This document shows, piece after piece, positions 4,754 through 17,616 of a stretch of 64,000 nt of DNA. The DNA comes from Microbacterium sp. AZCO (GTDB lineage: Bacteria; Actinomycetota; Actinomycetes; Actinomycetales; Microbacteriaceae): contig NZ_CP154857.1 in NCBI RefSeq assembly GCF_039614715.1, forward strand, positions 1,178,001-1,242,000, written 5' to 3'. The position numbers and the translations under genes are program-made. The notes under the pieces are model-generated. The model had not been told where the DNA came from, did not search any database, and was given only the letters and a program-made list of their open reading frames with translations. Each line of letters starts with the position of its first letter. Position 1 is the stretch's first letter.

Positions 4754-5833
4754 ATGAGCGATGGCGACGCAGTGGGCACGGTCACGGATGCCCACGACCG
4801 GGTTCGACGGCCGCTTCGGTGCGGCGAGCCGACCGTGTACGAGTTCACGACGGAGGACGGCGTCCGGCTTCAGCTGACGCGGTTCCAGGGCGGCACGAAG
4901 GGGCCCGTCATCCTGACGCCCGGCTTCGGCACCTCGTCGATCGCGTACACGATCGACACGACCGAGACGAACTTCCCGGAGTACCTCTACGAGCACGGGT
5001 ACGACGTGTGGGTGCTCGACTACCGGGCCAGTCCCCTGCTGCCGTCGGCGAGCACGCAGTTCACCCTCGACGACATCGCCCGATACGACTATCCGGCTGC
5101 GGTCGACAAGGTGCGCGAGGAGTCGGGCGCCGCGGACGTGCAGATCGTCGCGCACTGCGTCGGCTCGCTGACGATGCTCATGGCCCTCGGGCTGAAGCTG
5201 CAGGGCGTGCGCTCCGCCGTCGCATCGCAGGTGACCCTGCATCCCCGGGGCGGCACGCTCAACGAGCTGCGCGCCGGCATCTACGCCGGCAACATCCTCG
5301 ACGCGCTCGGCTTCGACACCCTGACGACCGAGTTCGACGACGACCCGTCGTGGGGCGAGAAGCTGTACGACAGGGCGCTCGCCGTCTACCCGTCGGGCGA
5401 TGAGCCGTGCGACCGGCCGTTCTGCCGACGCGTCATGTTCATGTACGGCGAGGTCTACGACCACGACAAGCTCAACGATGAGACGCACGACCACCTCGAG
5501 GAGGCGTTCGGCGTCGCCAACATCCGCACCCTGACCCACGTCACGAAGATGCTGCGCGCCGACCACGCCGTGAGCTGGGACGGCGACCACGACTACCTCG
5601 ACGACGTCGAGGGGCTCAAGGTGCCGATCGCCTTCCTGCACGGCGAGAACAACCGCCTCTTCCTGCCCGAGGGCAGCAAGCTCACCTACGAGTTCCTGAT
5701 CGAGCGCAACGGACCCGAGCTGTACTCGCGCCACGTCATCCCGGACTACGCCCACATGGACTGCTTCATCGGGAAGGATGCCGCGCGCGACGTCTATCCC
5801 ACGATCACCGCCCAGCTCGACCTGCACAACTGA
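4754..5833 (+). CDS. Alpha/beta hydrolase with Cys predicted nucleophile (lipid cluster)
   Basis: 359-residue alpha/beta hydrolase. The nucleophile elbow reads VAHCVGS, placing Cys135 where Ser normally stands. The acid is probably in [10 protein letters not shown] and the catalytic His in the C-terminal DYAHMDCF. It is a paralogue of the hydrolase at 14632-15693 (shared pattern of W(V/L)(L/F)-(D/N)(Y/W)R and the AHC-x-GS elbow). In some actinobacteria I recall a similar domain fused behind a GMC oxidoreductase, as in cholesterol-oxidase-like proteins. It is first in a two-gene unit with the nitroreductase-like gene 19 bp downstream. Substrate unknown; an ester or thioester of an oxidised lipid is my inference. 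Confidence 0.8.
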
Positions 5834-5852
5834 ACGAACCAGGAGCAGACGT

Positions 5853-7313
5853 ATGACCACGATCGACGACTCCGTCTCGCCGGACGCCGAGGCCACCGGC
5901 ATCCATCCCGCCCTCGCCGACCTCGCGAGCTATCCGTTCCTGTCGGCGCTGACAGACCGGCGGACGCGGCGGATCCCGCGGGGCTTCTCGGTGGACGCCG
6001 GGCCGCTCAGTCATGAGAGCCACAACGCGCCCGCTCCCCTGAGCAAGCTCGAGGAGGCGATCCTCATCACGTGCGTCACGGGCATCACGGGCATCACGAC
6101 CCACGACGGCCCGCTCGTGGAGAAGAACGGCCTTCCCGAGCTCGGCACGCCGTTCCTCAACATCCTCGCGCGCACGGGCAGCAGCGCCGACAACGCGCAG
6201 GCCACCTACTTCTTCATGATCAACGACGACGGCATCTTCCTGCTGAAGCCGCCGAAGGGCGCCCGCGCGCTCGAGCTGCTGAAGGACCTCCCGCCCAAGT
6301 GGGGCGACTGGTCCGAGGACGACTGGATCACAGCCGCCGCAGAGTGCACGATCCGCATCTCGGACAAGCGGCTCGACTTCCCGCGGGAGTGGCCGTACTA
6401 CCTGGGCTGGAACAACCAGGCGTCGAACACGCCCGGCACGACGATCTTCTTCCCGGTCGTGGACTGCACCTGGCAGTACATCAACGCGATCATCATCCTG
6501 CTGACGGAGCCGGGCGGCATGCGTCCGCTCTTCCTCGACGACTGGCGCAGCTTCCACCCCAAGGGCTTCGTGGAGTGGTTCGCGAAGATCGGCGGCGGCC
6601 TCGGCATCAGCCCGAAGATCCCCTACCACCCGATCGGCGGGCTCTCCCGCGTTCGCAGCGGCTACGTCAACAAGGACAGCCAGGCGCCCCTCGGCTTCGG
6701 GCACGCGCTGCGCACCGACTACGAGGCGTTCTTCTACTTCCAGAACCTCATGCTGCTCGGCCAGGCGATGGGCCTCGGCGGCTGGATCCACGGCTCGGTC
6801 TTCCCGCCGTACATCTGGCAGCAGGACGAGTCGAAGGGGTGGCACGGGCTCGGGTTCCGCCTGGAGGACCCGAAGAAGCACCGCAAGTGGCCGCCGGTGC
6901 CGGCCTCCCAGCCGAACCCCGTCGGCATCGACGGGATCCTCGAGGGGCTCACGCCCCCGTACGTGTCGTCGATGGACGAAGCCGTCGATCGCGTCGTCGA
7001 GTCGAAGTACAGCGCCGACGGCCCCGCCTACGGCAACGAGGCGGTGTGGTCGAGCCCGTACCGCAACAAGGACGACGCGAAGGCCTTCTTCGAGAAGGGC
7101 ACGAAGTTCGGCCCCGACGAGATCGCCTACACGAAGGACATCTGCAACTACATCTGGGACACCTACGGGCGCTTCCCCGCGCACGTCGACGCGTTCTACA
7201 CGCCGGGCATGTGGCTGCAGTTCTCGCATCTGGAGCTCGAGTACTACGACCGGTTCTTCGACCCGCGCCAGTACACGCGCCAGAAGGCGCATGACGGGCT
7301 CTGGCACCCCTGA
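5853..7313 (+). CDS. Divergent nitroreductase-like protein (FMN-type fold suspected)
   Basis: 486-residue soluble protein with an AGGAG ribosome site 7 bases before its ATG. No textbook family is obvious. Three segments resemble the nitroreductase/SagB fold: an N-terminal [18 protein letters not shown] stretch near residue 64, an [18 protein letters not shown] stretch near 114 that recalls the PSAG flavin-binding region, and [20 protein letters not shown] near 300 that recalls the QN-LLA-ALGLG helix. It is much longer than usual nitroreductases (about 200 residues), with aromatic-rich inserts. If flavin-dependent, it could reduce an enone or similar product of the neighbouring oxygenases. Convergent with the Ser hydrolase gene. 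Confidence 0.5.
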
Positions 7314-7321
7314 TCACGAGT

Positions 7322-7350
7322 GCGGGCCGGGGATGGATGCCTCGGCCCGC
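7322..7350. terminator. Possible hairpin between convergent genes
   Basis: GCGGGCCG and CGGCCCGC form an 8-bp stem with a loop of about 13 bases between two convergent stop codons. There is no clear T-run on either strand, so termination activity is uncertain. Confidence 0.3.
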
Positions 7351-7376
7351 CGCTCGGTCGTGAGCGGCGTTCCTGA

Positions 7377-8300
7377 CTAAAGGTGCGCCGTGAAGAAGGC
7401 CGCGACGTCGTCGGCCTGCTTGCTGACGTACTGGTACCCCTCGTAGCGTCCGGCCGAGGGGAAGTGGATGACGCCGAGCGAGTGGGGCGTGAGATCGGAG
7501 AACTCCTCCACGATGCTCATCCGGCCCCAGGGATCGCCCGTCCCCTGCACGTACTGCACGACGGTGTCCCCGAGCTTCGGGGCGACGTCGGCGGGGTTGT
7601 GCCGGCTCGGCAGCGGCGCCCGCAGGAAGACGTAGAGCAGGTCGGTGCTCTTCGCCGCCATCGGCCCCAGGGGGCCGAGCTCGTCGCGGGAGAAGTTGCG
7701 GTTGAACACCGGGAGCCGCGTCGGCTGCACCGCGAGGAAGGCCTTGACGGGCGGTCCGTCGGGGATCGCGTACATGACGGTGTTCGCGCCGGCGGACGTG
7801 CCCAGAGCGCCGATGCGATCCGGATCGACGTCGGGGCGCCCGCGCAGATAGCCCAGTGCGCCGTTGAAGTCCCGCGCCTCCCACCGCCCCATCGTGAGCG
7901 GCGGCCGCTTTCCGCTCGCGCCGTGGTTCGACAGGTCGAAGAGCAGCACGCTGTACCCGGCGTCGTGCAGAGCCTTCGTCGGCGGCAGGAAGTCGACGTC
8001 GCGGTCGACGAACGGCACGCGTCCCGCCGCATTGCCCGCACGGTTCCACAGCCAGCCGTGCACGAACACGACCGCCGGTCCTCGCTCGAGGCCGGACGGG
8101 ATGAACCAGCCGCGCAGGGGCACGCCGTCGGTGGCCTGGAAGGCGACCTCCTCGAACGCGAGGCCGAGGTCGGCGGGCGTGCGCGTCACCGGCTGACGAT
8201 CGCCCCACACCATGAGCTTCGTCAGGTGGGTGAGCTTGCGGATGCCGTGCTCGTCGAGCGGCGGCGTGTCGCTGCGCGTGTCAGCCGGCGACGGGGACAT
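7377..8300 (-). CDS. Alpha/beta hydrolase, serine type (lipid cluster)
   Basis: 307-residue hydrolase with the classic elbow GTSAGAN around residue 173, oxyanion region FVHGWLWNRAGN near 83, and a C-terminal region ending PSAGRYEGYQYVSKQ where His would be expected. The N-terminus shows TDGVPLRGWFIP, typical of dipeptidyl-peptidase/BAAT-like esterases. Its ATG lies 20 bp inside the end of the P450 gene, with a GGAG site 9 bases upstream, so it is translated from the same message as the dioxygenase, NTF2-like and P450 genes. It differs from the two Cys hydrolases of the cluster. Cleavage of an oxidised-lipid ester is plausible but not shown. Confidence 0.85.
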   Translation of the reverse strand: MSPSPADTRSDTPPLDEHGIRKLTHLTKLMVWGDRQPVTRTPADLGLAFEEVAFQATDGVPLRGWFIPSGLERGPAVVFVHGWLWNRAGNAAGRVPFVDRDVDFLPPTKALHDAGYSVLLFDLSNHGASGKRPPLTMGRWEARDFNGALGYLRGRPDVDPDRIGALGTSAGANTVMYAIPDGPPVKAFLAVQPTRLPVFNRNFSRDELGPLGPMAAKSTDLLYVFLRAPLPSRHNPADVAPKLGDTVVQYVQGTGDPWGRMSIVEEFSDLTPHSLGVIHFPSAGRYEGYQYVSKQADDVAAFFTAHL

Positions 8301-9624
8301 GCGCCCGGAACTCCACCCGCAGCCCGCTCGCGGGCAGGGGGAACAGCTCGTTCGTGAGGGTCAGGTCCTGATCGGGGATCGACCAGTCCGCCTTGCGCAG
8401 GAGCAGGGTCAGGTAGACCTTGACGGCGACTGTGACGATGTTCTCGCCGGGGCAGCGGTGGTGCGTGGACTGACCGTCGCCGTGCGGCACGTAGCTGCCG
8501 GGTGCGAGAGCGGCCTCCCGCTTCGGCGCGAACCGGTCGGGATCGAACCGGTCCGGGTCGGGGAAGACGTCGGGATTGCGCATGTTGATGTGGATGCCGC
8601 CGATGGCGCCCCACCCCTTCGGGATGCGGTATCCCCCGACCTCCATGTCTTCCTGCACGCGTCCGAAGAACGTCGCGGAGTTCATCGCGAAGTAGCGGCG
8701 GAGCTCCTTCGAGATCTGCTCGAGGTACTCCATCCGCTCGATCTGATCCATCGTGATGGGCCCGTCGGGCGAGATCGCGAGCACCTCGGCGCGAGCCTTC
8801 TCCATGATGTCGGGATGCTGACCAAGGATCATGGTCACGAGCGTCAGCGGCACGAAGTACCCGCCCTGCCCCGCGAAGATCAGGTGCCGGATGTCGCCGC
8901 GGAGCTTGTCGATCGGCACATCGGCCTCTGTCGCGGCGGTGATCATGCGCGAGACGATGTCGTCGTAGCCGCCGCGCTGATGCTTCTCGAGCGCGTCGCC
9001 GATGATCTGGTCCATGCGCTTGCGGCCCGCGATCGCCTTGCCGTACTTCGTCCCCGGGATCGGCAGCGGAAGCGTCATGAACGCCTCGCGCATGTTGGCG
9101 AGGTGGTAGTCGAGCTCGGCGGCATGCTCCTCGGTGAGATCGCCGGTGTACAGCGCGCCGGTCAGGCGTGCGGCGAACCGCTGCAGGTCGGCGCGGAGGT
9201 TGGCGCCCTCGCCGCTCTCGAGCCACGGGTCGATCGTCCGCTCGAGCAGCGACTGCATCGTCGGCAGATACGACGCGATGGCCGAGCGGAAGCCGACCGC
9301 GCGGAGCATGACGGACTTGCGCGTGTGGTGCTCGACGCCGTCGATGAGCGCGAGCGAGTTCAGGAAGATCTGCTCGGCGGAGATGGGGTCGGCGTCGCCG
9401 CGGACGATGCGCGCGTCCGTCGCGAAGGTGTGGAACGCCTCGTGGCCCGAGAACACGACGAAGCTGTTGCCGAACAGCCGCGTCTTGAAGATGGGGCCGT
9501 ACTTCGCGAGCCGGTCCTTGTAGAACCCGTGGTTGTTCTTGATGATGTCGAAGGTCTCCCCCAGCCACGGCATGCCGAAGCGGCCGGGAGGCAGAGGCTT
9601 CTGATTCGGGCGGGACTTCGCCAT
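8281..9624 (-). CDS. Cytochrome P450, peroxygenase/hydroperoxide type (CYP152/CYP74-like)
   Basis: 447-residue soluble P450. The haem cysteine is Cys391 in GDGQSTHHRCPGENI. This loop lacks the usual Phe and Gly of the P450 signature and, from memory, resembles the HRCPGE loop of fatty-acid peroxygenases (CYP152). The helix K motif ELRR is at 307-310. The I-helix reads FAGQGGYFVP at 250-259, so the acid-alcohol pair (D/E-T) needed to activate O2 is missing. P450s with this loss (CYP74, CYP152, prostacyclin-type) act on hydroperoxides and need no electron donor, and no ferredoxin or reductase gene is nearby. The start (MAKSRPNQ) overlaps the stop of the NTF2-like gene by one base (TGATG). Confidence 0.9.
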   Translation of the reverse strand: MAKSRPNQKPLPPGRFGMPWLGETFDIIKNNHGFYKDRLAKYGPIFKTRLFGNSFVVFSGHEAFHTFATDARIVRGDADPISAEQIFLNSLALIDGVEHHTRKSVMLRAVGFRSAIASYLPTMQSLLERTIDPWLESGEGANLRADLQRFAARLTGALYTGDLTEEHAAELDYHLANMREAFMTLPLPIPGTKYGKAIAGRKRMDQIIGDALEKHQRGGYDDIVSRMITAATEADVPIDKLRGDIRHLIFAGQGGYFVPLTLVTMILGQHPDIMEKARAEVLAISPDGPITMDQIERMEYLEQISKELRRYFAMNSATFFGRVQEDMEVGGYRIPKGWGAIGGIHINMRNPDVFPDPDRFDPDRFAPKREAALAPGSYVPHGDGQSTHHRCPGENIVTVAVKVYLTLLLRKADWSIPDQDLTLTNELFPLPASGLRVEFRAHVPVAG

Positions 9625-10094
9625 CACTTCTTCCTCTTCTTGGGAAGCAGCTTGGTGACCCACCCGAACCACCGCGACGAGCGGAAGACCCAGTTGATCA
9701 TCTGCTGGTTCCACTCGTGGAGCCAGTACTCCTTGATGAGGTGGTTCTCGTCGAGGATGAAGATACCCGTCGCACGCCCCTGCAGCGTCTTGATCGGCAT
9801 CCTGATCTCGTATTTCAGGATGACGGTCGTGAAGATCTCGCCGACCGTGATGTCGAGCACCTCGCCGACGAAGACGCCGTCCTTGATGAACTGCGTGAGC
9901 TGCGTGTACAGGCCCACGATGTCGTCGGTCGTGCGGTAGTCGCCGGACATGTAATTCTGGCCCGGGTAGTGGATGACGGCACCGGGGGCGAGCAGCTTGC
10001 GGAAGGCCACCATGTCGGCGGCCATCAACACGTCCCAGTACGTGCGGATGAGGGTGATCCGCGCTTCGCGGTCTTCCTCGGTCGTGGTGGTCAT
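9624..10094 (-). CDS. NTF2/SnoaL-like protein (lipid cluster)
   Basis: 156-residue protein of the cone-shaped NTF2-like fold: an N-terminal helix pair (ITLIRTYWDVLMAADM), then FRKLLAPGAVIHYPGQN, and sheet strands to LIKEYWLHEWNQQMINW; a basic tail ends KKRKK. The fold includes ketosteroid isomerase, limonene-epoxide hydrolase and polyketide cyclases. Between a haem dioxygenase and a hydroperoxide-type P450, a role as isomerase, cyclase or epoxide hydrolase on the oxygenated product is the natural guess, but no catalytic residues could be assigned. A strong AAGGAG site lies 5 bases before its ATG, 26 bp after the dioxygenase stop; its own stop overlaps the P450 ATG. Confidence 0.75.
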   Translation of the reverse strand: MTTTTEEDREARITLIRTYWDVLMAADMVAFRKLLAPGAVIHYPGQNYMSGDYRTTDDIVGLYTQLTQFIKDGVFVGEVLDITVGEIFTTVILKYEIRMPIKTLQGRATGIFILDENHLIKEYWLHEWNQQMINWVFRSSRWFGWVTKLLPKKRKK

Positions 10095-10120
10095 GGAACT
10101 CCTTGCCGGACGCCGGGGCG

Positions 10121-11971
10121 TCACTCGTGCTGGCCGGCGGCGGCTGTCGCGGCGCTGGTGGTGGTGCGGGGCGCGCTCACGTTCCAGGGCACGAAGGCGT
10201 TCGGCACGCCGTCGAGCGCCTTGTGGAGCTGGGGGAAGTGCCGCAGCAGGACGGTGCGCATGTCGCTGTCCGCGATCCACTGCAGGCCGGTCTTCGTGTA
10301 GTACTCCTCCGTGTAGCAGTCGGTGATGAAGCGGTCGCTCTTCAGCCGGCGGCTGGCCATCAGGATGAACACGCGGAACGCCGTGTCGCTGAAGCCGAAG
10401 CCCGCAGGCGGCGTCTCGGCGTGCATGCCGACCTGGAGGTCGACCTTCTCGACGTCGCCGTAGATCTCCTCGAGCTCCTTGGCCCAGACCGGGTTGTCGG
10501 TGAGCTCCGCGAAGGTCGCGGCGGGCTTGAGGTGCAGCTGGCGGCGGAACTCGTTGTAGCGCGGCACGCCCCGCTCGCGGTCGCGCGTGATGTCGAGCGC
10601 CGCGATGTCGAGGCGCACGCCGTCCGGAAGCGTGATGTCCTGCATCCATCGCGGGAAGTTGTGCAGCTGCACTGCGCCCGGGTTCTGGATGCCGAACGAG
10701 TACCAGAGGTCCTCCACCTCCTGCGGACCCTCGAGCACCCGCTGCGCGTTCAGGAGGATGATCTCCTTGAAGTCCATCGAGTCCAGCAGCGAATCGTCGT
10801 CGAGCGAGCGCACGTCGAGCTGCTCCGGCAGAAGCGGATGCAGGCGGTAGACGGCCGCGAACTCCTCCGTGAGCTGGTACGGCGCGCCGTGGTGATCGTG
10901 CGCCGATCCGGGGATGCCGCTGATCACGTCGCTCTTGCTGATGCGGCCGAACTTGCGGTGGAGCTTCTCCTCGGCGAGGCCCCACCAGTTCGCCCGCATC
11001 GCGACCTTCAGAACCGGGTGCGCGATGATCGCCGGCGTCCACTCGACAGTGTGGATCTTGGCCAGCAGCGCCGAGTTCACGAGCCGCGCGATGCCGAACA
11101 GCTCGTCCTCTGTGAGATGCGGGTGGTTCTTCTTGAGCGCATCGCAGATCGCGTTGTGCTCGAGAGTGAACAGCGTATGTAGCATCCCGAGCCCGACCCA
11201 CCAGTTCTCGCTGAATCCCGTGAGCGCGACGCCGGAGGCCGGATCGAGCGGAAGCTGTCCGTTCTTGAGCACGAGCTTGCCGTCGACGAAGCTGCGGACG
11301 GCCTTCTGCTTGGCCTCCGTGCTGCCGTAGATCGACGAGGCGTCCCACCAGTGCGAGTTGGTGTTGATGTACGTCGGCGGCAGGTGCTTGTCGGCGTCGA
11401 CGCGTGTGCCGTCCTGCTTCGTGCGCGGGATGCGCATGGGGTCTTCGAACCACTTGTCGCCCTCGGGCAGCGGGATCTCGATGTCGTCGTGGTCCTCACG
11501 GCCGTGGGCGAACCAGTCGTGCGTCTGGAACTGGATCCAGGATGCCGCGAGCAGGTTGATCGACGTGGCCGGCGTGAACTCGTCGCGGCGCATCAGCCGC
11601 TGACTCACTTCGCGCGGATTCGGGGTGAGCAGCTCCTCCGGCGTGCCCGGCCACGCCTTGTCGAGGGCGACGTTGCGGGCGAAGCGCGTGCCGGTCTTGC
11701 CCATATCCGGGTCGCTCAGGTCGTCATAGCCGCCGTCCGCCGTGCGGAAGCGACGTACCGCGTCAGGCGCGTCGGCCAGTGCGACTCCCGGCGTGAGCCC
11801 GGCACCGCCGGGCGTGCGGGTGTCGACGAGGTTGTCCTCGCGCAGCTGATCGCGCAGCGCGATCAGGTTGAAGAGCCCGAACACGAACGGAAGCTTGTGC
11901 CAGGGCGTGCGCTGATTGACGCGCGAGTACACCCGGATCAACGCGCGCCCGAACACGGATGGTTTGCTCAC
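10121..11971 (-). CDS. Haem dioxygenase of the alpha-dioxygenase/cyclooxygenase (animal haem peroxidase) family
   Basis: 616 residues, the size of plant and bacterial fatty-acid alpha-dioxygenases. Distal His151 lies in QFQTHDWFAH, the proximal His378 and radical Tyr375 in AAVYRLHPLLP (same Y-x-x-H spacing as Tyr385/His388 of cyclooxygenase). NSHWWDASSIYGST near 205 is the alpha-dioxygenase counterpart of the peroxidase active-site segment. The family adds O2 to fatty acids to give hydroperoxides. It has no signal peptide; the N-terminal part may be membrane-associated. The start is a GTG with GGAG 8 bases upstream; longer in-frame starts would add sequence without homologous character. First gene of a four-gene unit running to the Ser hydrolase. 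Confidence 0.9.
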   Translation of the reverse strand: MSKPSVFGRALIRVYSRVNQRTPWHKLPFVFGLFNLIALRDQLREDNLVDTRTPGGAGLTPGVALADAPDAVRRFRTADGGYDDLSDPDMGKTGTRFARNVALDKAWPGTPEELLTPNPREVSQRLMRRDEFTPATSINLLAASWIQFQTHDWFAHGREDHDDIEIPLPEGDKWFEDPMRIPRTKQDGTRVDADKHLPPTYINTNSHWWDASSIYGSTEAKQKAVRSFVDGKLVLKNGQLPLDPASGVALTGFSENWWVGLGMLHTLFTLEHNAICDALKKNHPHLTEDELFGIARLVNSALLAKIHTVEWTPAIIAHPVLKVAMRANWWGLAEEKLHRKFGRISKSDVISGIPGSAHDHHGAPYQLTEEFAAVYRLHPLLPEQLDVRSLDDDSLLDSMDFKEIILLNAQRVLEGPQEVEDLWYSFGIQNPGAVQLHNFPRWMQDITLPDGVRLDIAALDITRDRERGVPRYNEFRRQLHLKPAATFAELTDNPVWAKELEEIYGDVEKVDLQVGMHAETPPAGFGFSDTAFRVFILMASRRLKSDRFITDCYTEEYYTKTGLQWIADSDMRTVLLRHFPQLHKALDGVPNAFVPWNVSAPRTTTSAATAAAGQHE

Positions 11972-12002
11972 TGCCGACTCCAATCGCGCAGGACGGCGGT
12001 CC

Positions 12003-12038
12003 CCCAGTGGATCTGCCCTCATCCCAGTGGATCTGCCC
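12003..12038. repeat. Two 16-bp direct repeats, period 20 bp, in the divergent lipid-cluster promoter
   Basis: CCCAGTGGATCTGCCC occurs at 12003-12018 and again, identical, at 12023-12038. The 20-bp period puts both on nearly the same face of the helix, as expected for paired sites of one regulator. They lie 32 bp or more upstream of the dioxygenase GTG and next to a candidate -10 element for that gene. Confidence 0.7.
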
Positions 12039-12040
12039 GA

Positions 12041-12046
12041 ATCATA
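12041..12046 (-). promoter_or_regulatory. Candidate -10 element for the dioxygenase operon
   Basis: On the minus strand this reads TATGAT, five of six bases of the primary-sigma consensus and unusual in this GC-rich DNA. No good -35 was found. Transcription would start inside or just before the direct repeats, so a protein bound there would repress. Confidence 0.35.
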
Positions 12047-12235
12047 GTGAAGGGGAGGATGCCGCGGCCATCATCATTCGTCGCGAACCGCTGCAATCGC
12101 CCATCGCGGCGTCCGAACCGGCGGATCCTCGCATGCTCCGGCGGTTATGCGTTGCGGCGCGAGGGTCGCGCTCACTAGCGTGTGGTCTGGTGCGGGCGGG
12201 GGCCGGGCGATGGAGCGCGCACGGAAGGGACAGCT

Positions 12236-14635
12236 GTGGGGGCACAGGTTGAGCACGTCGACGCTGTCGTCGTGGGGTCGGGGTTCGGCGCGTCGGTCTC
12301 GGCGTTCCGCCTCGCCGAGGCGGGCCGGTCGGTCGTCGTCCTCGAGCGCGGTCGCGCGTACCCGCCGGGAAGCTTCGCGCGCAATCCGTACGAGATGAGC
12401 CGCGCGTTCTGGGAGCCGAAGGACGAGCTGTTCGGGCTCTTCGACATCCGCTCCTTCCGCAAGCTCGAGGGCATCGTGTCGGCGGGGCTGGGCGGAGGAT
12501 CGCTCATCTACGCCAACGTTCTGCTGCGCAAGGACGAGAAGTGGTTCGTCCACGACTCGCCGCTCCCCGGCGGCGGATACGAGAACTGGCCCATCGGCCG
12601 CAACGACCTCGACAAGCACTACGACGCCGTCGAGGCGATGATGACGCCGACGCCGAGCCCCTACCCCGATCTTCCGAAGTCCAAGGCGCTCCGGGATGCC
12701 GCCGTGAGCCTCGGGATGCCGAGCTTCGAGCCGCCCCTCGCGGTGACGTTCGCGCCCCGGCCGGGCGCCGCGCCGCAGCCCAAGCAGATGATCGAGGAGC
12801 CCGCGTACGGCAACATCCACGGCGCGACGCGTCTGACCTGTCGTCTCTGCGGAGAGTGCGACATCGGCTGCAACGAGGGGTCGAAGAACACGCTCGACCA
12901 CAACTACCTCTCGGCCGCGGTGGCCAAGGGCGCGGACATCCGCACGCTCGCGGAGGTCTACGGCATCTCGCCGCTGCCCGGCGGCGGCTACGAGGTGCGG
13001 TACCGGCAGTACGGCACGGAGGCCGAGGCGGACGGCAAGCGCTCGCGCACCGAGCTCCGGATCACGTGCGATCAGCTCTTCCTCGGCGCCGGCACCTTCG
13101 GGACGACGGCCCTCCTGCTTCGCAACCGCGCCAACCTGCCGGCCCTCGGCCGGGCGCTCGGCAGTCGCTTCAGCGGCAACGGCGACCTCATCACGTTCTG
13201 CATGGATGCGACGTCGACGTCGGAGGCGGGGCAGATCCGCTTCATCGACCCGACCTACGGACCCGTCATCACGACGGCGATCCGTCAGCCCGACGGCGTC
13301 GACGAGGCCGGCCGCGGCCGGGGCTACTACGTGCAGGAGGCGGGATTCCCGGAGTTCGCGAACTGGCTCATCGAGACGTCGCAGGTCACGTCGTCGCTCA
13401 AGACGGCGGCGGCCGTCGTGCGCCAGATGGTCGGCAACCGCCTCAGCGGCCGGAACGAATCGACCATCTCGGCCGAAGTCGCCAAGCTGGTCGGCCAGGG
13501 GCGCCTCACCTCGAGTTCGCTCCCGCTCCTGGGCATGGGACGCGACACGCCGGATGGGCGCATGACGATCCGCGACGGCGAGCTCGACATCGAGTGGACC
13601 ACGGCGACGAGCGCGGCGTACTTCGACGCCATGCGCAGCACCATGAAGGACATCACCGAGACGCTCGGCGGCACCTTCCGCGACAACCCGCTGTGGTGGA
13701 CGAAGCGCGTCATCACGGTGCATCCGCTCGGCGGCAGCCCGATGGGCCGGCACGTGCACGAGGGCGTCGTCGACAACTGGAACGAGTCGTTCGGGCATCC
13801 CGACCTCTTCGTCGTGGACGGCTCCGCCGTCCCGGGTCCGGTGGGGCCGAACCCGTCGCTCACGATCGCCGCGATGGCCGACCGGGCGATCGAGCACATC
13901 CTCGAGAAGCCGCGCCCCGTGCGCCGTCGCGCGGCAGAGACCGCGCCGGTCGACGCGGACGTCCCGGTGGTCGTCGATCCCGTGCCGGGCCGCAGCATGG
14001 AGTTCACCGAGAAGATGAAGGGCTACATCGCTCTCGGTGCGACCGACTCGATGACGGGCTGGCACACGGGGCGGCGGCTCGGGCAGCGATTCATGTTCAG
14101 ACTCACGATCACGGCTCCCGACGTGGAGCGGTTCGTCTCGAGCGAGGATCACACGGCCGTCGCCGAAGGCTACGTCGAGAGCGACGTGCTCGGCGGGCAG
14201 CTGCCCGTGCAGCGCGGCTGGGCCAACCTCTTCGTCGACACCGCGCACGCGCGGACGCGGGAGATGCGGTACCGGCTGTGGTTCAGCGACATCTCGGGCA
14301 GCCCCCTGACGATGTACGGCTTCAAGACCGTGCGGGACGACCCCGGCCTCGACGTCTGGAGCGACACCTCGACGCTCTACGTCCGGATCATGAAGGGGCA
14401 CGTCCCGCCGGGCGAGAACGGCGCGGACGACGGCAGCGGCGAGACGATCGCGGCGGGGATGCTGCGGATCCTCCCGCAGGACTTCGCACGCCAGCTCACG
14501 ACGTTCCGCGGCGCCGGCCGAGGGCCGCTCGCTTCGATCGGCCGGTTCGGGATGTTCTTCGGCAAGTCGGTCGCCGACGCCTATCTGCCGCCGGCGCCGC
14601 CGCGGGAGAGCGCATCCGAGGGGGCGGCGCGATGA
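12236..14635 (+). CDS. GMC-type FAD oxidoreductase, cholesterol-oxidase-like, with C-terminal extra domain
   Basis: 799 residues. The FAD dinucleotide motif VVVGSGFGAS is near residue 11, a cysteine cluster CRLCGECDIGC near 203-213, and HPLGGSPMG near 497 followed by GPVGPNPSLTIAA, the GMC active-site His region and C-terminal FAD loop. This layout is that of actinobacterial cholesterol-oxidase-like GMC enzymes that oxidise secondary alcohols. After about residue 580 comes an extra beta-rich domain (FTEKMKGYIALGA onward) of unknown role. The start is a GTG with GGAAGGGA 6 bases before it. Its stop overlaps the ATG of the next hydrolase (ATGA), so the two are coupled. It is divergent from the haem dioxygenase. 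Confidence 0.88.
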   Translation: MGAQVEHVDAVVVGSGFGASVSAFRLAEAGRSVVVLERGRAYPPGSFARNPYEMSRAFWEPKDELFGLFDIRSFRKLEGIVSAGLGGGSLIYANVLLRKDEKWFVHDSPLPGGGYENWPIGRNDLDKHYDAVEAMMTPTPSPYPDLPKSKALRDAAVSLGMPSFEPPLAVTFAPRPGAAPQPKQMIEEPAYGNIHGATRLTCRLCGECDIGCNEGSKNTLDHNYLSAAVAKGADIRTLAEVYGISPLPGGGYEVRYRQYGTEAEADGKRSRTELRITCDQLFLGAGTFGTTALLLRNRANLPALGRALGSRFSGNGDLITFCMDATSTSEAGQIRFIDPTYGPVITTAIRQPDGVDEAGRGRGYYVQEAGFPEFANWLIETSQVTSSLKTAAAVVRQMVGNRLSGRNESTISAEVAKLVGQGRLTSSSLPLLGMGRDTPDGRMTIRDGELDIEWTTATSAAYFDAMRSTMKDITETLGGTFRDNPLWWTKRVITVHPLGGSPMGRHVHEGVVDNWNESFGHPDLFVVDGSAVPGPVGPNPSLTIAAMADRAIEHILEKPRPVRRRAAETAPVDADVPVVVDPVPGRSMEFTEKMKGYIALGATDSMTGWHTGRRLGQRFMFRLTITAPDVERFVSSEDHTAVAEGYVESDVLGGQLPVQRGWANLFVDTAHARTREMRYRLWFSDISGSPLTMYGFKTVRDDPGLDVWSDTSTLYVRIMKGHVPPGENGADDGSGETIAAGMLRILPQDFARQLTTFRGAGRGPLASIGRFGMFFGKSVADAYLPPAPPRESASEGAAR

Positions 14636-15693
14636 CGACGACCATCACCGCCGCGCGCCGGGCGCAGGTCGACGAGCACCACTTCATCAAGGCCGACGAC
14701 GGTGTCCCCCTCACCCTCATCCACGTGCGCGGTCCGGTCGCCCCGACGAAGCCGCCCGTGCTGCTCGTCCACGGCGCGGGCATGCGCGCCGAGTCGTTCC
14801 GCCCGCCCGCCATCCGGTCGATCGTCGACGTCCTGCTCGCCGACGGCTGGGATGTCTGGCTCTTCAACTGGCGCGGGTCGACCGACCTCGATGCCCTGCC
14901 CTGGACGCTGGACGACGTCGCGCGGTTCGACCATCCCGCCGCCGTGCGGCACATCGTCGCCGAGACCGGCGCCGACTCGATCAAGGCGATCGCGCACTGC
15001 CAGGGCTCGACGAGCCTGAGCATGGCGGTCGTCGCGGGTCTCGTGCCGCAGATCGACACCGTCGTCTCGAACGGGGTGTCGCTGCATCCCGTCGTCCCCC
15101 GGTTCACCAAGGTCAAGCTGCACATGCTCCGCCCGCTCTTCCAGCGAGGCCAGCCGTACGTGGACGTCGCGTGGGGCGACGGGCCAGAGAAGGGCGTGCA
15201 CCTCGTGACGCGCTCCGCCGTGCGGCTCTGGCACGTCGAGTGCAGCAATCCGGCGTGCAACATGGCCAGCTTCGCCCTCGGATCGGGGCATCCCGCGATC
15301 TGGCGGCACCGCAACCTCGATCGCGAGACGCACGAGTGGCTCGCGACGGAATTCGGCAAGATCCCCCTCGCGATGTACGCCCAGATCGCGAAGTCGGAGC
15401 GCGCCGGACAGGTCGTCGCGTTCCAGCCCGTGGACGGGATGCCTGCTCGGTACGCGAGTGCGGCCCCGCGATCGACGGCGCGCTTCGCGCTCTTCACGGG
15501 TGCGGAGAACCACGCGTTCCTTCCGCAGAGCCAGCGGGCCACCCACGCATACCTCGAACGCCACCAGCCGGGCCGCCACACGCTCCACGTCATCCCCGGG
15601 TACGGCCACGCCGACGTGTTCGTCGGGCATCGAGCGCACCTCGACGTCTTCCCCGCGATCATGGCGGAGCTCAACCGCCCCTCGGGAGCCTGA
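14632..15693 (+). CDS. Alpha/beta hydrolase with Cys predicted nucleophile, coupled to GMC oxidoreductase
   Basis: 353-residue alpha/beta hydrolase. Elbow AHCQGSTS puts Cys123 in the nucleophile position; oxyanion motif HGAGMRAESF near 41; acid candidate in FTGAENHAFLP; catalytic His in GYGHADVF near the C-terminus. It is a paralogue of the gene at 4754-5833. The ATG overlaps the GMC stop, so both proteins are made together and may form a complex, consistent with my recollection of single-chain fusions of these two modules in other actinobacteria. With a Cys nucleophile it may be a thioesterase, lactonase (as dienelactone hydrolase) or acyltransferase; which one cannot be told. Confidence 0.82.
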   Translation: MTTTITAARRAQVDEHHFIKADDGVPLTLIHVRGPVAPTKPPVLLVHGAGMRAESFRPPAIRSIVDVLLADGWDVWLFNWRGSTDLDALPWTLDDVARFDHPAAVRHIVAETGADSIKAIAHCQGSTSLSMAVVAGLVPQIDTVVSNGVSLHPVVPRFTKVKLHMLRPLFQRGQPYVDVAWGDGPEKGVHLVTRSAVRLWHVECSNPACNMASFALGSGHPAIWRHRNLDRETHEWLATEFGKIPLAMYAQIAKSERAGQVVAFQPVDGMPARYASAAPRSTARFALFTGAENHAFLPQSQRATHAYLERHQPGRHTLHVIPGYGHADVFVGHRAHLDVFPAIMAELNRPSGA

Positions 15694-15697
15694 GCCG

Positions 15698-16852
15698 TCA
15701 GAGCAGGATGCGAACCTGCCGGGTAGGGCTCGTCGAGCCCAGCAGCCGTTCGGAGCCGCCGAAGACGGCGACCACGGTGTGGGGACCTCTGCTCAGCGCG
15801 GGCAACCGGAGGACTGCGGAGGCGGAGCCGGTTCCCACGACCGTCGTCGCGGGTCCGCTTCTGCCGTCGACGATGAGCGTGACGGTGCCGTCGACCTGAC
15901 CGCCCGCGGGATCCGTGACGACCACGCGGGCGTTGACGGCTGTCCGCGAGGTGAGCGCGTAGCGCCGATCGAGGGTGAGCGCCGTCGTCGTGGCCTGCTT
16001 CTCCGCTACGACGAAGGAGTGGTTCCACAGGCGCGTCAGCACCTGGTCCGCTGACGTCGCGCCGCCGGACACCGTCGAGGTCGACTCGACGAACACCCTG
16101 AGCCGGTCGCCGGGTGCGGCGGCGATGCCGCTCGGGATGGTGAGACCCAGCACGGACCCGTCCGACGTCGCGGACACCTGCTCGGCGGGCACCGTCCCGC
16201 CCGAAGACCCTTCGATCCGGGCCTCGAGGCGAACGGCGGATCCGAGAGGGAACCAGATGCCCGCCGATCCCCGGATGCGGATGCGCTCACCCGGAGCGAT
16301 CGCGATGTCGTCCGGCGCGCAGCATCCGTCGAGGGGGTCGCGTTCGGTGATTCTCGTCGCCTTCTCCGCAGAGTGATTCAGCGTCAGCTCAGCGGGGGCG
16401 CCGGCGTCACCCACGAGGGTCCACCTCGCCTCGGATCGGGATTCCATCTGAGTCACGCAGGACGCGGTATACAGCGCACCGTCATCGGAGATCGCGCCGG
16501 CCGGCACGTCCAGTCCGTGGTCGGTCGACCACCAGTCGTCCTCCCAGAGGCGCTCAGCGATCGTCGTGCCATCGCTTGCGACCAGCTTGCAGAACATCTC
16601 GGGGCCGGCCGGTCCGAAAGGCGGATCGAACAGGATCCTCGTCGTGTCCGATCCGATCGTGAGGAGACGACTCGGTGGTGATGGTGCGCCGTACTCGAAA
16701 ATGAAGCTCGAGTCGCCGGAGTTCCCGGCGGGCAGGTCGATGGCGGGGACGGTCGGCGGCGCGGCGTTCGCGGTCGCGGCACTGCCTGCAACCAGGGCGA
16801 TGGTCGTTGCGGCTGCGGCGAGCGAGACGCCCCAGCGGTGGCCGGGTGTCAT
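15698..16852 (-). CDS. Secreted protein with C-terminal Ig-like (Big_3-type) domain
   Basis: 384 residues. A Sec signal peptide is clear: MTPGHRWG, then a hydrophobic Ala-rich core ending near ATANAAP (about residue 33). The mature part has two beta-rich sections. The last 90 residues (TTALTLDRRYALTSRTAVNARV onward, with GPHTVVAVFGGS) match the bacterial Ig-like repeats common in actinobacterial surface and secreted proteins. There is no sorting signal or late membrane span, so it is probably released. A GGGAG site lies 5-6 bases before the ATG; the longer reading frame upstream is not needed. Function unknown; its stop faces the end of the hydrolase operon 4 bp away. Confidence 0.75.
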   Translation of the reverse strand: MTPGHRWGVSLAAAATTIALVAGSAATANAAPPTVPAIDLPAGNSGDSSFIFEYGAPSPPSRLLTIGSDTTRILFDPPFGPAGPEMFCKLVASDGTTIAERLWEDDWWSTDHGLDVPAGAISDDGALYTASCVTQMESRSEARWTLVGDAGAPAELTLNHSAEKATRITERDPLDGCCAPDDIAIAPGERIRIRGSAGIWFPLGSAVRLEARIEGSSGGTVPAEQVSATSDGSVLGLTIPSGIAAAPGDRLRVFVESTSTVSGGATSADQVLTRLWNHSFVVAEKQATTTALTLDRRYALTSRTAVNARVVVTDPAGGQVDGTVTLIVDGRSGPATTVVGTGSASAVLRLPALSRGPHTVVAVFGGSERLLGSTSPTRQVRILL

Positions 16853-16959
16853 GCGGACTCCCTGCGGTCGGCGGATCCGGTCAGAAGAGTGGAGCGTCTG
16901 GCCCAGTATGCCTCGCGGCTCGGCCGTCGACCAAGGGGTCATGAATTCTATGACCGCTG

Positions 16960-17616
16960 TCAGAGGTGCTTGAGCGCCTCGCGGGTGCTGAGCGGGCTCA
17001 GCTCGTGCGTGGAGACGAAACGGCGCACCCACTCGGGCTGCACGCGCGCGTACTCGCGCAGCGCCCAGCCGATCGCCTTGCGGATGAAGAACTCCCGGTC
17101 GGCTGTGTTCGGCTCGATGACGTCCGTGAGGAGAACGGGGTCGACGCGGTCGCGGCGGCCCAGCTGCGAGATGATCGCGACGCGCCGTATCCAGAAGTCG
17201 TCGTCACAACTCCATCGGCGCAGCAGTCCCGCCGTCTCCTCGGGCCGCTCGTCGAGCGCGTCGGCGAACCGGTGCGCCAGCTCGTCGGTGATGTCCCACC
17301 ACTGCCCCGTGCGCACCATGTGCTCTGCGAGCGGGAGCACGGCCGGTTCCCCCTTCAGCGGCCGAAGTGCGAGCACGTGCATGGCCGCGTAGCGCTCTTC
17401 TCGATGGGATGCCCCGTCCCACAGTTCCCGCGCCGCCGCGAGCAGCGGCCCGGCATCCGTCTCGCCCGTGAACGCTGCGCGCGTGAGACGCCGCACCTCC
17501 GGCAGCGAAACGCCGTAGAAGGGCATGGTCGACTTCATGTACGCCTGCTGACCAGGAGCGCGCGCGGGGTCGCCCGCAGCGCGGAGCCGCGCGCGGATGT
17601 CCTCGACCGGGGTCAC
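16960..17616 (-). CDS. AlkD-like DNA alkylation repair protein
   Basis: 218-residue all-helical HEAT-like protein of the DNA-glycosylase AlkD family, which removes bulky or positively charged alkyl adducts. Recognisable parts are KSTMPFYGVSLPEVR near the N-terminus, MVRTGQWWDITDELAHR near residue 105 with the conserved Trp-Trp-Asp, and FWIRRVAIISQLG and FFIRKAIGWALREYA with the Arg/Lys-bearing helices. Length is usual for the family. The start is a GTG. It reads away from the tRNA block and towards the secreted-protein gene, with 107 bp between them. No partner gene is evident. Confidence 0.85.
   Translation of the reverse strand: MTPVEDIRARLRAAGDPARAPGQQAYMKSTMPFYGVSLPEVRRLTRAAFTGETDAGPLLAAARELWDGASHREERYAAMHVLALRPLKGEPAVLPLAEHMVRTGQWWDITDELAHRFADALDERPEETAGLLRRWSCDDDFWIRRVAIISQLGRRDRVDPVLLTDVIEPNTADREFFIRKAIGWALREYARVQPEWVRRFVSTHELSPLSTREALKHL

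Follow-up and report, generated by a model that had tools for sequence, protein, structure and literature searches.

An eight-gene locus in Microbacterium sp. AZCO

We analyzed a 64,000-nucleotide stretch of DNA from the soil bacterium Microbacterium sp. AZCO (bases 1178001-1242000 of a single 4.23-Mb contig; hereafter, the window) and focused on eight genes at positions 4754-15693 that may form a lipid-oxidation cluster. An initial annotation had listed here a haem dioxygenase (DOX), a cytochrome P450, a small NTF2-like protein, a GMC flavoprotein, three alpha/beta hydrolases (HydA, HydB and HydC), and a nitroreductase-like protein (X). Domain matches and coordinates confirmed all eight genes where it had placed them, with X recognized by its predicted fold. 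By gene order and strand, the genes make three apparent units: HydA-X on the plus strand, DOX-NTF2-P450-HydB on the minus strand, and GMC-HydC on the plus strand.

The tight coupling claimed for the minus-strand unit was correct, as NTF2 and P450 meet in TGATG and P450 and HydB overlap by 20 bp (8281-8300). HydA and X are separated by 19 nt, and GMC and HydC overlap in ATGA. The likely NTF2 start is an ATG 26 nt past the DOX stop, preceded by AAGGAG, a putative ribosome-binding site; an alternative GTG start at 10124 would overlap DOX. Codon-position G+C singles out the frames of X, HydB, P450, DOX and GMC (HydA, NTF2 and HydC fell outside the filtered list). The flanks are housekeeping genes, with threonyl-tRNA synthetase on one side and, further off on the other, an ammonium transporter and others. 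The close homologues that carry names are from Microbacterium. A sigma-70 promoter scan gave no match.

The dioxygenase resembles plant alpha-dioxygenases

DOX (10121-12022, minus strand; likely start GTG 11971) matches PF03098 with 366 bits and is the single PF03098 match in the genome. Its closest PDB sequences are plant alpha-dioxygenases (alpha-DOXs; 412, 410 and 383 bits), followed by lactoperoxidase at 81 bits. The residues named initially, His151, Tyr375 and His378, are correct when the protein is numbered from GTG 11971 (616 aa). We aligned 98 DOX rows, namely the window, the best 80 of 586 DOX loci, 11 Microbacterium clusters, L119, L104, Nostoc L122 and three plasmid proteins (L070 and L122 are one gene, counted twice). 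The catalytic Tyr392 and proximal haem His395 (633-aa count) were invariant in all 98 rows, and so were His324, Thr329 and Arg559 (rice His311, Thr316 and Arg559). The distal His position holds His in 69 rows, Arg in 27 and Lys in 2.

Passages of PMC8720084 describe the roles of the alpha-DOX Tyr, His, carboxylate/alpha-carbon His, Thr and Arg, and state that the distal His is conserved in part only; two cyanobacterial members are reported there to be active on C10-C14 acids. The Nostoc and Calothrix DOX loci match the window DOX at 50-53%. We found that the alpha-DOX scores and residues exclude a Ppo- or COX-type identity. The dioxygenase is very probably alpha-DOX-type, and its family and residues predict a 2-hydroperoxide as product.

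The P450 lacks the oxygen-activating pair

The P450 (8281-9624, minus strand; PF00067, 134 bits; haem loop HRCPGE) is the only P450 match in the genome. Its best PDB match is CYP120 (200 bits), and its best NCBIfam match is the CYP152 peroxygenase CypC, at 107 bits against a cut-off of 600. Where the I-helix of CYP120 reads AGHET, the window P450 reads AGQGG. We aligned 122 P450 rows (the window, Nostoc and 120 listed homologues, some partial, with P0358 kept) and found the acid-alcohol pair in none of them, which bears out the initial observation that the O2-activating residues are missing. The alcohol position is Gly in every row, and the acid position is never Asp or Glu. The haem loop H(R/K)C(P/A)(G/A)E is present in 117 rows, with four gapped there and P0358 out of frame.

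Ferredoxin families serve P450s as electron partners. We found no match to PF13370 or PF13459 in the genome, and each control was positive in 5 of 14 genomes. Gln254 of the I-helix is kept in 113 of the 122 rows (Glu in 7, Tyr in 2). Since I-helix amide residues, which hydroperoxide-converting P450s carry, can be dispensable (PMC13049297, in part), Gln254 is no more than suggestive. As judged from these sequences, it is plausible, and rather probable, that the P450 works without a reductase.

DOX and P450 were separate genes in all clusters read, and no Ppo-type fusion was met. A single long hit, P0358, joins P450 with HydB and not with DOX; its middle reads like a frame shift, and we dropped it as evidence. 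The 72,556 plasmid records held no plasmid-borne P450 (E 1e-60).

The cluster is conserved in other Microbacterium genomes

The initial annotation had left co-occurrence to be checked, and we found that the genes do co-occur in other genomes. A search of 247 Microbacterium genomes gave 10 with the P450 (E 1e-60) and 13 with DOX. DOX neighbors P450 in all 10 P450 carriers, with 29-531 nt between match ends, a gap that leaves room for NTF2 in some carriers and not in others. X (E 1e-100) was found in 15 of 366 genomes, and HydA, X, P450, DOX, GMC and HydC are jointly present in 14 of these 15; HydB is present in 13 and NTF2 in 7. The 15 X loci read were the window, L138-L149, L119 and L004 (the same place as G1111). 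Hence, conservation in other genomes makes the cluster more than a chance arrangement.

Threonyl-tRNA synthetase flanks all 13 full clusters besides the window. L003/L121 (G156) keeps DOX alone, and its neighbors are, by their protein starts, the same repair gene and synthetase. The simplest reading is a single genomic slot with gains or partial losses.

Two loci have peculiarities of their own. At L147:6913-10293 (G1162), a metallo-beta-lactamase-fold gene and a DyP-type peroxidase lie between P450 and DOX, and HydB was not found in that cluster. At L149:11085-12722, the X frame opens with a stretch like the start of HydA, a possible deletion remnant.

Related loci beyond the genus

We examined the best 80 of 586 DOX loci and found this P450 at three of them (62-69% identity), in Microbacterium sp. 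CPCC 204701, Nocardioides islandensis and N. agariphilus. The GMC-HydA-X genes of N. islandensis are on a separate contig, which ends 144 nt past X. Among the 120 proteins listed for each query, contigs of equal length, presumed to be shared, join DOX and P450 in 23 cases, X and P450 in seven, and X and DOX in one. In Oryzobacter telluris, DOX, P450 and X are all present among the matches listed.

For the DOX tree, we took 61 of the 98 rows: every P450-linked row, the fusions, four selected rows and, of the remainder, every second one. The 16 P450-linked rows fall within a 17-row clade (95/87), whose sole other row is L003, and this clade joins the Gemmatimonadetes locus L007 at 100/100. The label test for the P450 group took only three fusion rows as outsiders, and the clade in the tree was used instead.

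The cluster had been called actinobacterial, a restriction not borne out by Nostoc, which holds a GMC/HydA/X/P450/HydB set. The order in Nostoc sp. B(2019) (L116) is GMC (30%), DUF6765, a fusion of a GMC-C-terminal-like part with HydA (55%), X (60%), a RoxA-like di-haem cytochrome, P450 (38%), HydB (39%) and a metallo-beta-lactamase fold. In the phylum of Nostoc, X was found in 1 of 244 genomes, the centre genome itself. None of 121 genomes from the phylum of locus L007 (Gemmatimonadota) had X, a result that shows little because X proteins so labelled appear among the listed homologues. In the phylum of the window, X at E 1e-40 was found in 6 of 396 genomes including the window, with the other five at 30-44% identity.

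X accompanies a catalase-like/DOX protein in a second kind of locus

Of the 72,556 plasmid records, 16 contain a relative of X (35-37% identity, 92-99% query coverage): 14 are from Rhizobium, one from Phyllobacterium (a match in two pieces) and one from Nonomuraea (a chromosome-size record); these records represent about four lineages. A 948-aa R. jaguaris protein near X is matched over at least 80% of its length in exactly the 16 accessions that have X. Shorter DOX matches occur in three more plasmid records (Streptomyces, Calothrix and Qingshengfaniella), none of which had an X match.

We examined the N-terminus of this protein in the Kim5 copy by Pfam and in the Nonomuraea copy by PDB. The Kim5 copy carries PF00199 catalase (28.1 bits, cut-off 25) and PF03098 (327 bits) in a single chain. 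The N-terminal part of the Nonomuraea copy is nearest PDB 3e4w (42 bits), which we take to be a catalase-related peroxide enzyme. Between match ends, X lies 20-98 nt from the catalase-like/DOX protein in six records; in the other ten, which make up the R. phaseoli group, the distance is 2,368 nt. In the two of these ten that were read, Kim5 and R611, the gap contains a small gene and a gene annotated as cytochrome c, which Pfam shows to be RoxA-like in Kim5. X of the two systems aligns over nearly the full length, with an N-terminal RRTxR and a C-terminal GRFPAHxxAxxxPGxWxQ block in common. A catalase-like domain stands in the P450's stead in the second system, which suggests, from gene content, that the P450 handles the DOX product; this is the strongest new evidence for that role.

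On the conjugative bean-Rhizobium plasmids L150 and L156, genes for an M4 metallopeptidase and a tyrosinase come after those for the peroxidase, cytochrome c and X.

X, GMC, the hydrolases and the small protein

X (5853-7313, plus strand) is a conserved 486-aa protein whose predicted fold is that of a nitroreductase (flavin mononucleotide, FMN, reductase), in agreement with its initial description. It had no Pfam or NCBIfam match, and a sequence search of the PDB gave no useful match. The conserved N-terminal RRTxR may hint at FMN binding. The X family has at least 1,073 proteins, and among the 120 listed, the names, where given, are hypothetical or uncharacterized.

GMC (12236-14635, plus strand) matches GMC_oxred_N (33.1 bits) and GMC_oxred_C (53 bits; cut-offs 23 and 24.6), is cholesterol-oxidase-like and has an extra C-terminal domain. 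Its score against the NCBIfam cholesterol oxidase equivalog is 205 bits, below the cut-off of 850. It carries a CxxCxxCxxxC motif, which is also present in GMC of the 13 other Microbacterium clusters, L116, L118 and L007 and is degenerate in L006, L028, L066 and L117 (4 of 20 other GMC loci examined). The initial label of an alcohol oxidase is unproven. In the Microbacterium proteins, the motif may indicate a dehydrogenase.

The initial annotation had spoken of Cys-hydrolases, a term that fits two of the three hydrolases. HydA (4754-5833, plus strand; PF00561, 40.8 bits) and HydC (14632-15693, plus strand; PF00561, 50.2 bits) have Cys in the nucleophile motifs AHCVGS and AHCQGS, whereas HydB (7377-8300, minus strand; PF12697, 31.3 bits) has the Ser motif GTSAG. 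The Cys of HydA and of HydC is kept in all 13 other Microbacterium clusters, and the Ser of HydB in 11 of the 12 that have HydB; at L138:10059-10988 (G200), the HydB nucleophile is Ala instead of Ser. HydC weakly matches acid/gastric lipases (about 30 bits). Because relatives of GMC and HydC occur together without P450 in L028 and L066, GMC-HydC may form a separate module. In the Gemmatimonadetes locus L007 (16885-20328), a single 1147-aa protein contains GMC and an alpha/beta hydrolase, joined by a middle part; VAQGFGA aligns with the nucleophile motif of the hydrolase.

The gene of the NTF2/SnoaL-like small protein (9624-10094, minus strand) is present as initially reported; its domain match falls below the cut-off (SnoaL_2, E 0.0011), and under half of the X-bearing Microbacterium genomes carry it (7 of 15).

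The divergent DOX/GMC intergenic region holds a conserved non-coding block (12025-12051), a candidate promoter or operator, which overlaps a 20-bp tandem direct repeat (12003-12042). The block, TGGATCTGCCCGAATCATAGTGA or a variant, recurs between DOX and GMC in the 13 further Microbacterium clusters examined; in L147, L148 and L119, only its right half is clear. Adjoining the cluster, window positions 15698-17032 encode a protein with a bacterial Ig-like domain (Big_3_5, 37.8 bits), matched in 1 of 20 loci tested (L144), some of these loci being too short to show it.

A proposed pathway and its alternatives

We read the locus as a lipid-oxidation (oxylipin/alpha-oxidation) cluster in three transcription units, in which DOX would act first and the P450 would then act on the hydroperoxide, and we give this reading a probability of roughly 0.57. 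As its family and residues suggest, DOX would use a Tyr radical to add O2 at the alpha carbon of a free fatty acid or other hydrophobic carboxylic acid, yielding the 2-hydroperoxide. The P450 would use the 2-hydroperoxide (or H2O2) as oxygen donor without a reductase and isomerize, cleave or reduce the hydroperoxide. We infer this step because the acid-alcohol pair is missing, redox partners were not found, and a catalase-like domain occurs with DOX near X elsewhere. Guessing from their folds, flavoprotein X might then reduce or oxidize the product, GMC might oxidize an alcohol, and the Cys/Ser hydrolases might release the substrate or transfer or hydrolyze acyl groups.

Gene content makes it plausible, with the odds slightly in favor, that DOX feeds the P450. 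Plants and fungi make lipid signals in a comparable way, and this pairing had been proposed initially by analogy to their oxylipin pathways, including the fungal Ppo fusions. The pairing stands as the most economical reading and is strengthened by the catalase-like DOX proteins near X; the family-level parallel with Ppo is not supported, as DOX is alpha-DOX-type and the P450 is nearest CYP120 with a CYP152-like haem loop.

Several observations weigh against the serial pathway. Three of the 13 Microbacterium DOX carriers are without the P450: G156 (75% identity), G137 (49%) and G100 (48%, with one internal stop). L149 keeps X alone, beside a gene that by its start is the synthetase. Of the best 80 DOX loci, 77 lack a P450 like this one in the sequence available, many of them on short contigs, and L081 has an unrelated P450 (22%); hence, most bacterial alpha-DOXs examined do without it. 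Among the matches listed, X shares a presumed contig with DOX once against seven times with P450; M. thalassium was the sole X-P450 case read for DOX, and DOX was found. In Nostoc L116, DOX lies about 16.5 kb from the set, groups with cyanobacterial rows outside the cluster clade and is separated from the set by genes that look unrelated by their protein starts, so Nostoc is weak or contrary evidence for the DOX link. Three Fer2-domain matches in the genome (Fer2 was searched along with PF13370 and PF13459) could serve a P450. Finally, CYP152 enzymes have Arg-Pro where the acid-alcohol pair would stand (PMC5377825, in part), and this Arg-Pro pair is absent from all 122 P450 rows, so peroxygenase use is not claimable by family membership. 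Together with the CypC score below its cut-off, the missing pair rules out CYP152 membership.

In an alternative that we consider unlikely, DOX and P450 act on fatty acids in parallel instead of in series: the P450 would be a peroxygenase fed by H2O2 from GMC, and this H2O2 would also activate the alpha-DOX. The cholesterol-oxidase-like GMC, the CypC profile as best NCBIfam match, the HRCPGE haem loop, and a cited reference whose title names hydrogen peroxide activation of rice alpha-DOX are consistent with this. The lack of the Arg-Pro pair in every row argues against it, as does the CxxCxxCxxxC motif of the Microbacterium GMCs, which suggests electron transfer over O2 reduction; 4 of 20 other loci, however, have a degenerate form of it.

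The cluster might instead break down a lipid, terpenoid or sterol ester of exogenous origin, which we judge equally unlikely. In this catabolic reading, the lipase-like Cys hydrolases would free acid and alcohol, GMC would oxidize the alcohol, and DOX and P450 would attack the acid or ring system. The eight genes include no transporter and no CoA ligase, and the residues conserved in DOX serve to hold a fatty carboxylate. HydC is weakly like acid/gastric lipases, in favor of this reading, but a Cys where lipases have Ser speaks for a different reaction. The likeness of GMC to cholesterol oxidase and of the P450 to CYP120, with some homologues named retinoid hydroxylase, also fits catabolism, as does the patchy distribution (15 of 366 genomes).

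A third alternative, quite improbable, is that the P450 depends on NAD(P)H as ordinary monooxygenases do, despite its unusual I-helix, and is served by ferredoxins encoded elsewhere in the genome. The Fer2 matches would fit this, and some P450s without the Thr still use O2. Against it, Gly fills the alcohol position in all rows, an acid occurs in none, PF13370 and PF13459 are unmatched, and DOX has a catalase-like domain as companion near X elsewhere.

Taking the serial DOX-P450 pathway a step further, we tentatively propose, at somewhat less than even odds, that X marks an undescribed bacterial oxylipin/alpha-oxidation class: an alpha-DOX, an exchangeable reductase-free haem enzyme for the 2-hydroperoxide, and a nitroreductase-fold flavoprotein that finishes the product. 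The exchangeable enzyme would be the P450 in Microbacterium, Nocardioides and relatives, or the catalase-like domain fused to DOX in Rhizobium, Phyllobacterium and Nonomuraea.

Relation to known systems and significance

The plant and cyanobacterial alpha-DOXs (AtDOX1, OsaDOX, CalDOX and LepDOX) belong to the same family as DOX and have in common with it the catalytic Tyr, proximal His, carboxylate-binding His and Arg, and Thr. They have been studied as single enzymes that yield fatty aldehydes, whereas DOX here lies in a conserved P450 cluster or, elsewhere, is fused to a catalase-like domain. The terms 'P450' and 'gene cluster' do not occur in the main text of PMC8720084, passages of which go only so far as to suggest that alpha-oxidation may exist outside plants. 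A literature search with most subscription journals outside its coverage found no description of such a cluster, a weak indication that its parts list has not been described.

Parts of PMC13049297 describe a Nostoc punctiforme linoleate 10S-DOX and the fungal DOX-CYP fusions (linoleate diol, allene oxide and epoxy alcohol synthases), which likewise pair a dioxygenase of the COX superfamily with a P450. Unlike those fusions, the locus here has separate genes, a dioxygenase of the alpha-DOX type and not an 8/9/10-DOX, a P450 near CYP120, and X, GMC and hydrolases in addition. The N. punctiforme dioxygenase is reportedly paired with a catalase-related hydroperoxide lyase, and so resembles the Rhizobium and Nonomuraea proteins near X with another type of DOX. 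To our knowledge, X is not part of that system. The CYP152 fatty-acid peroxygenases, whose haem loop is of the HRC(P/A)GE type like that of the window P450, are likewise without the acid-alcohol pair; the carboxylate Arg-Pro pair of CYP152 is absent here.

Another bacterial two-step fatty acid hydroperoxide pathway is the oleate diol synthase of P. aeruginosa (PA2077/PA2078), which is RoxA-like and di-haem; RoxA-like proteins, according to parts of PMC4496055, include this fatty-acid dioxygenase and diol synthase and also a rubber oxygenase. In Nostoc and on the Kim5 plasmid, RoxA-like proteins are encoded close to X, but the P. aeruginosa enzymes are unrelated to the genes here, and a RoxA-like gene is not among the eight.

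Bacterial alpha-DOXs are common, and the P450 cluster and the catalase-like locus name candidate enzymes for the fate of their hydroperoxide. Should the P450 prove to convert 2-hydroperoxides unaided by a reductase, it would make a self-sufficient biocatalyst, and the dioxygenase/P450 logic of fungi, plants and animals might have arisen here independently. If the X-marked class is real, alpha-DOX would have a P450 as natural partner in it, and the product would be a defined one that differs from the aldehyde formed spontaneously; the role of X would also give a function to its family of at least 1,073 proteins.

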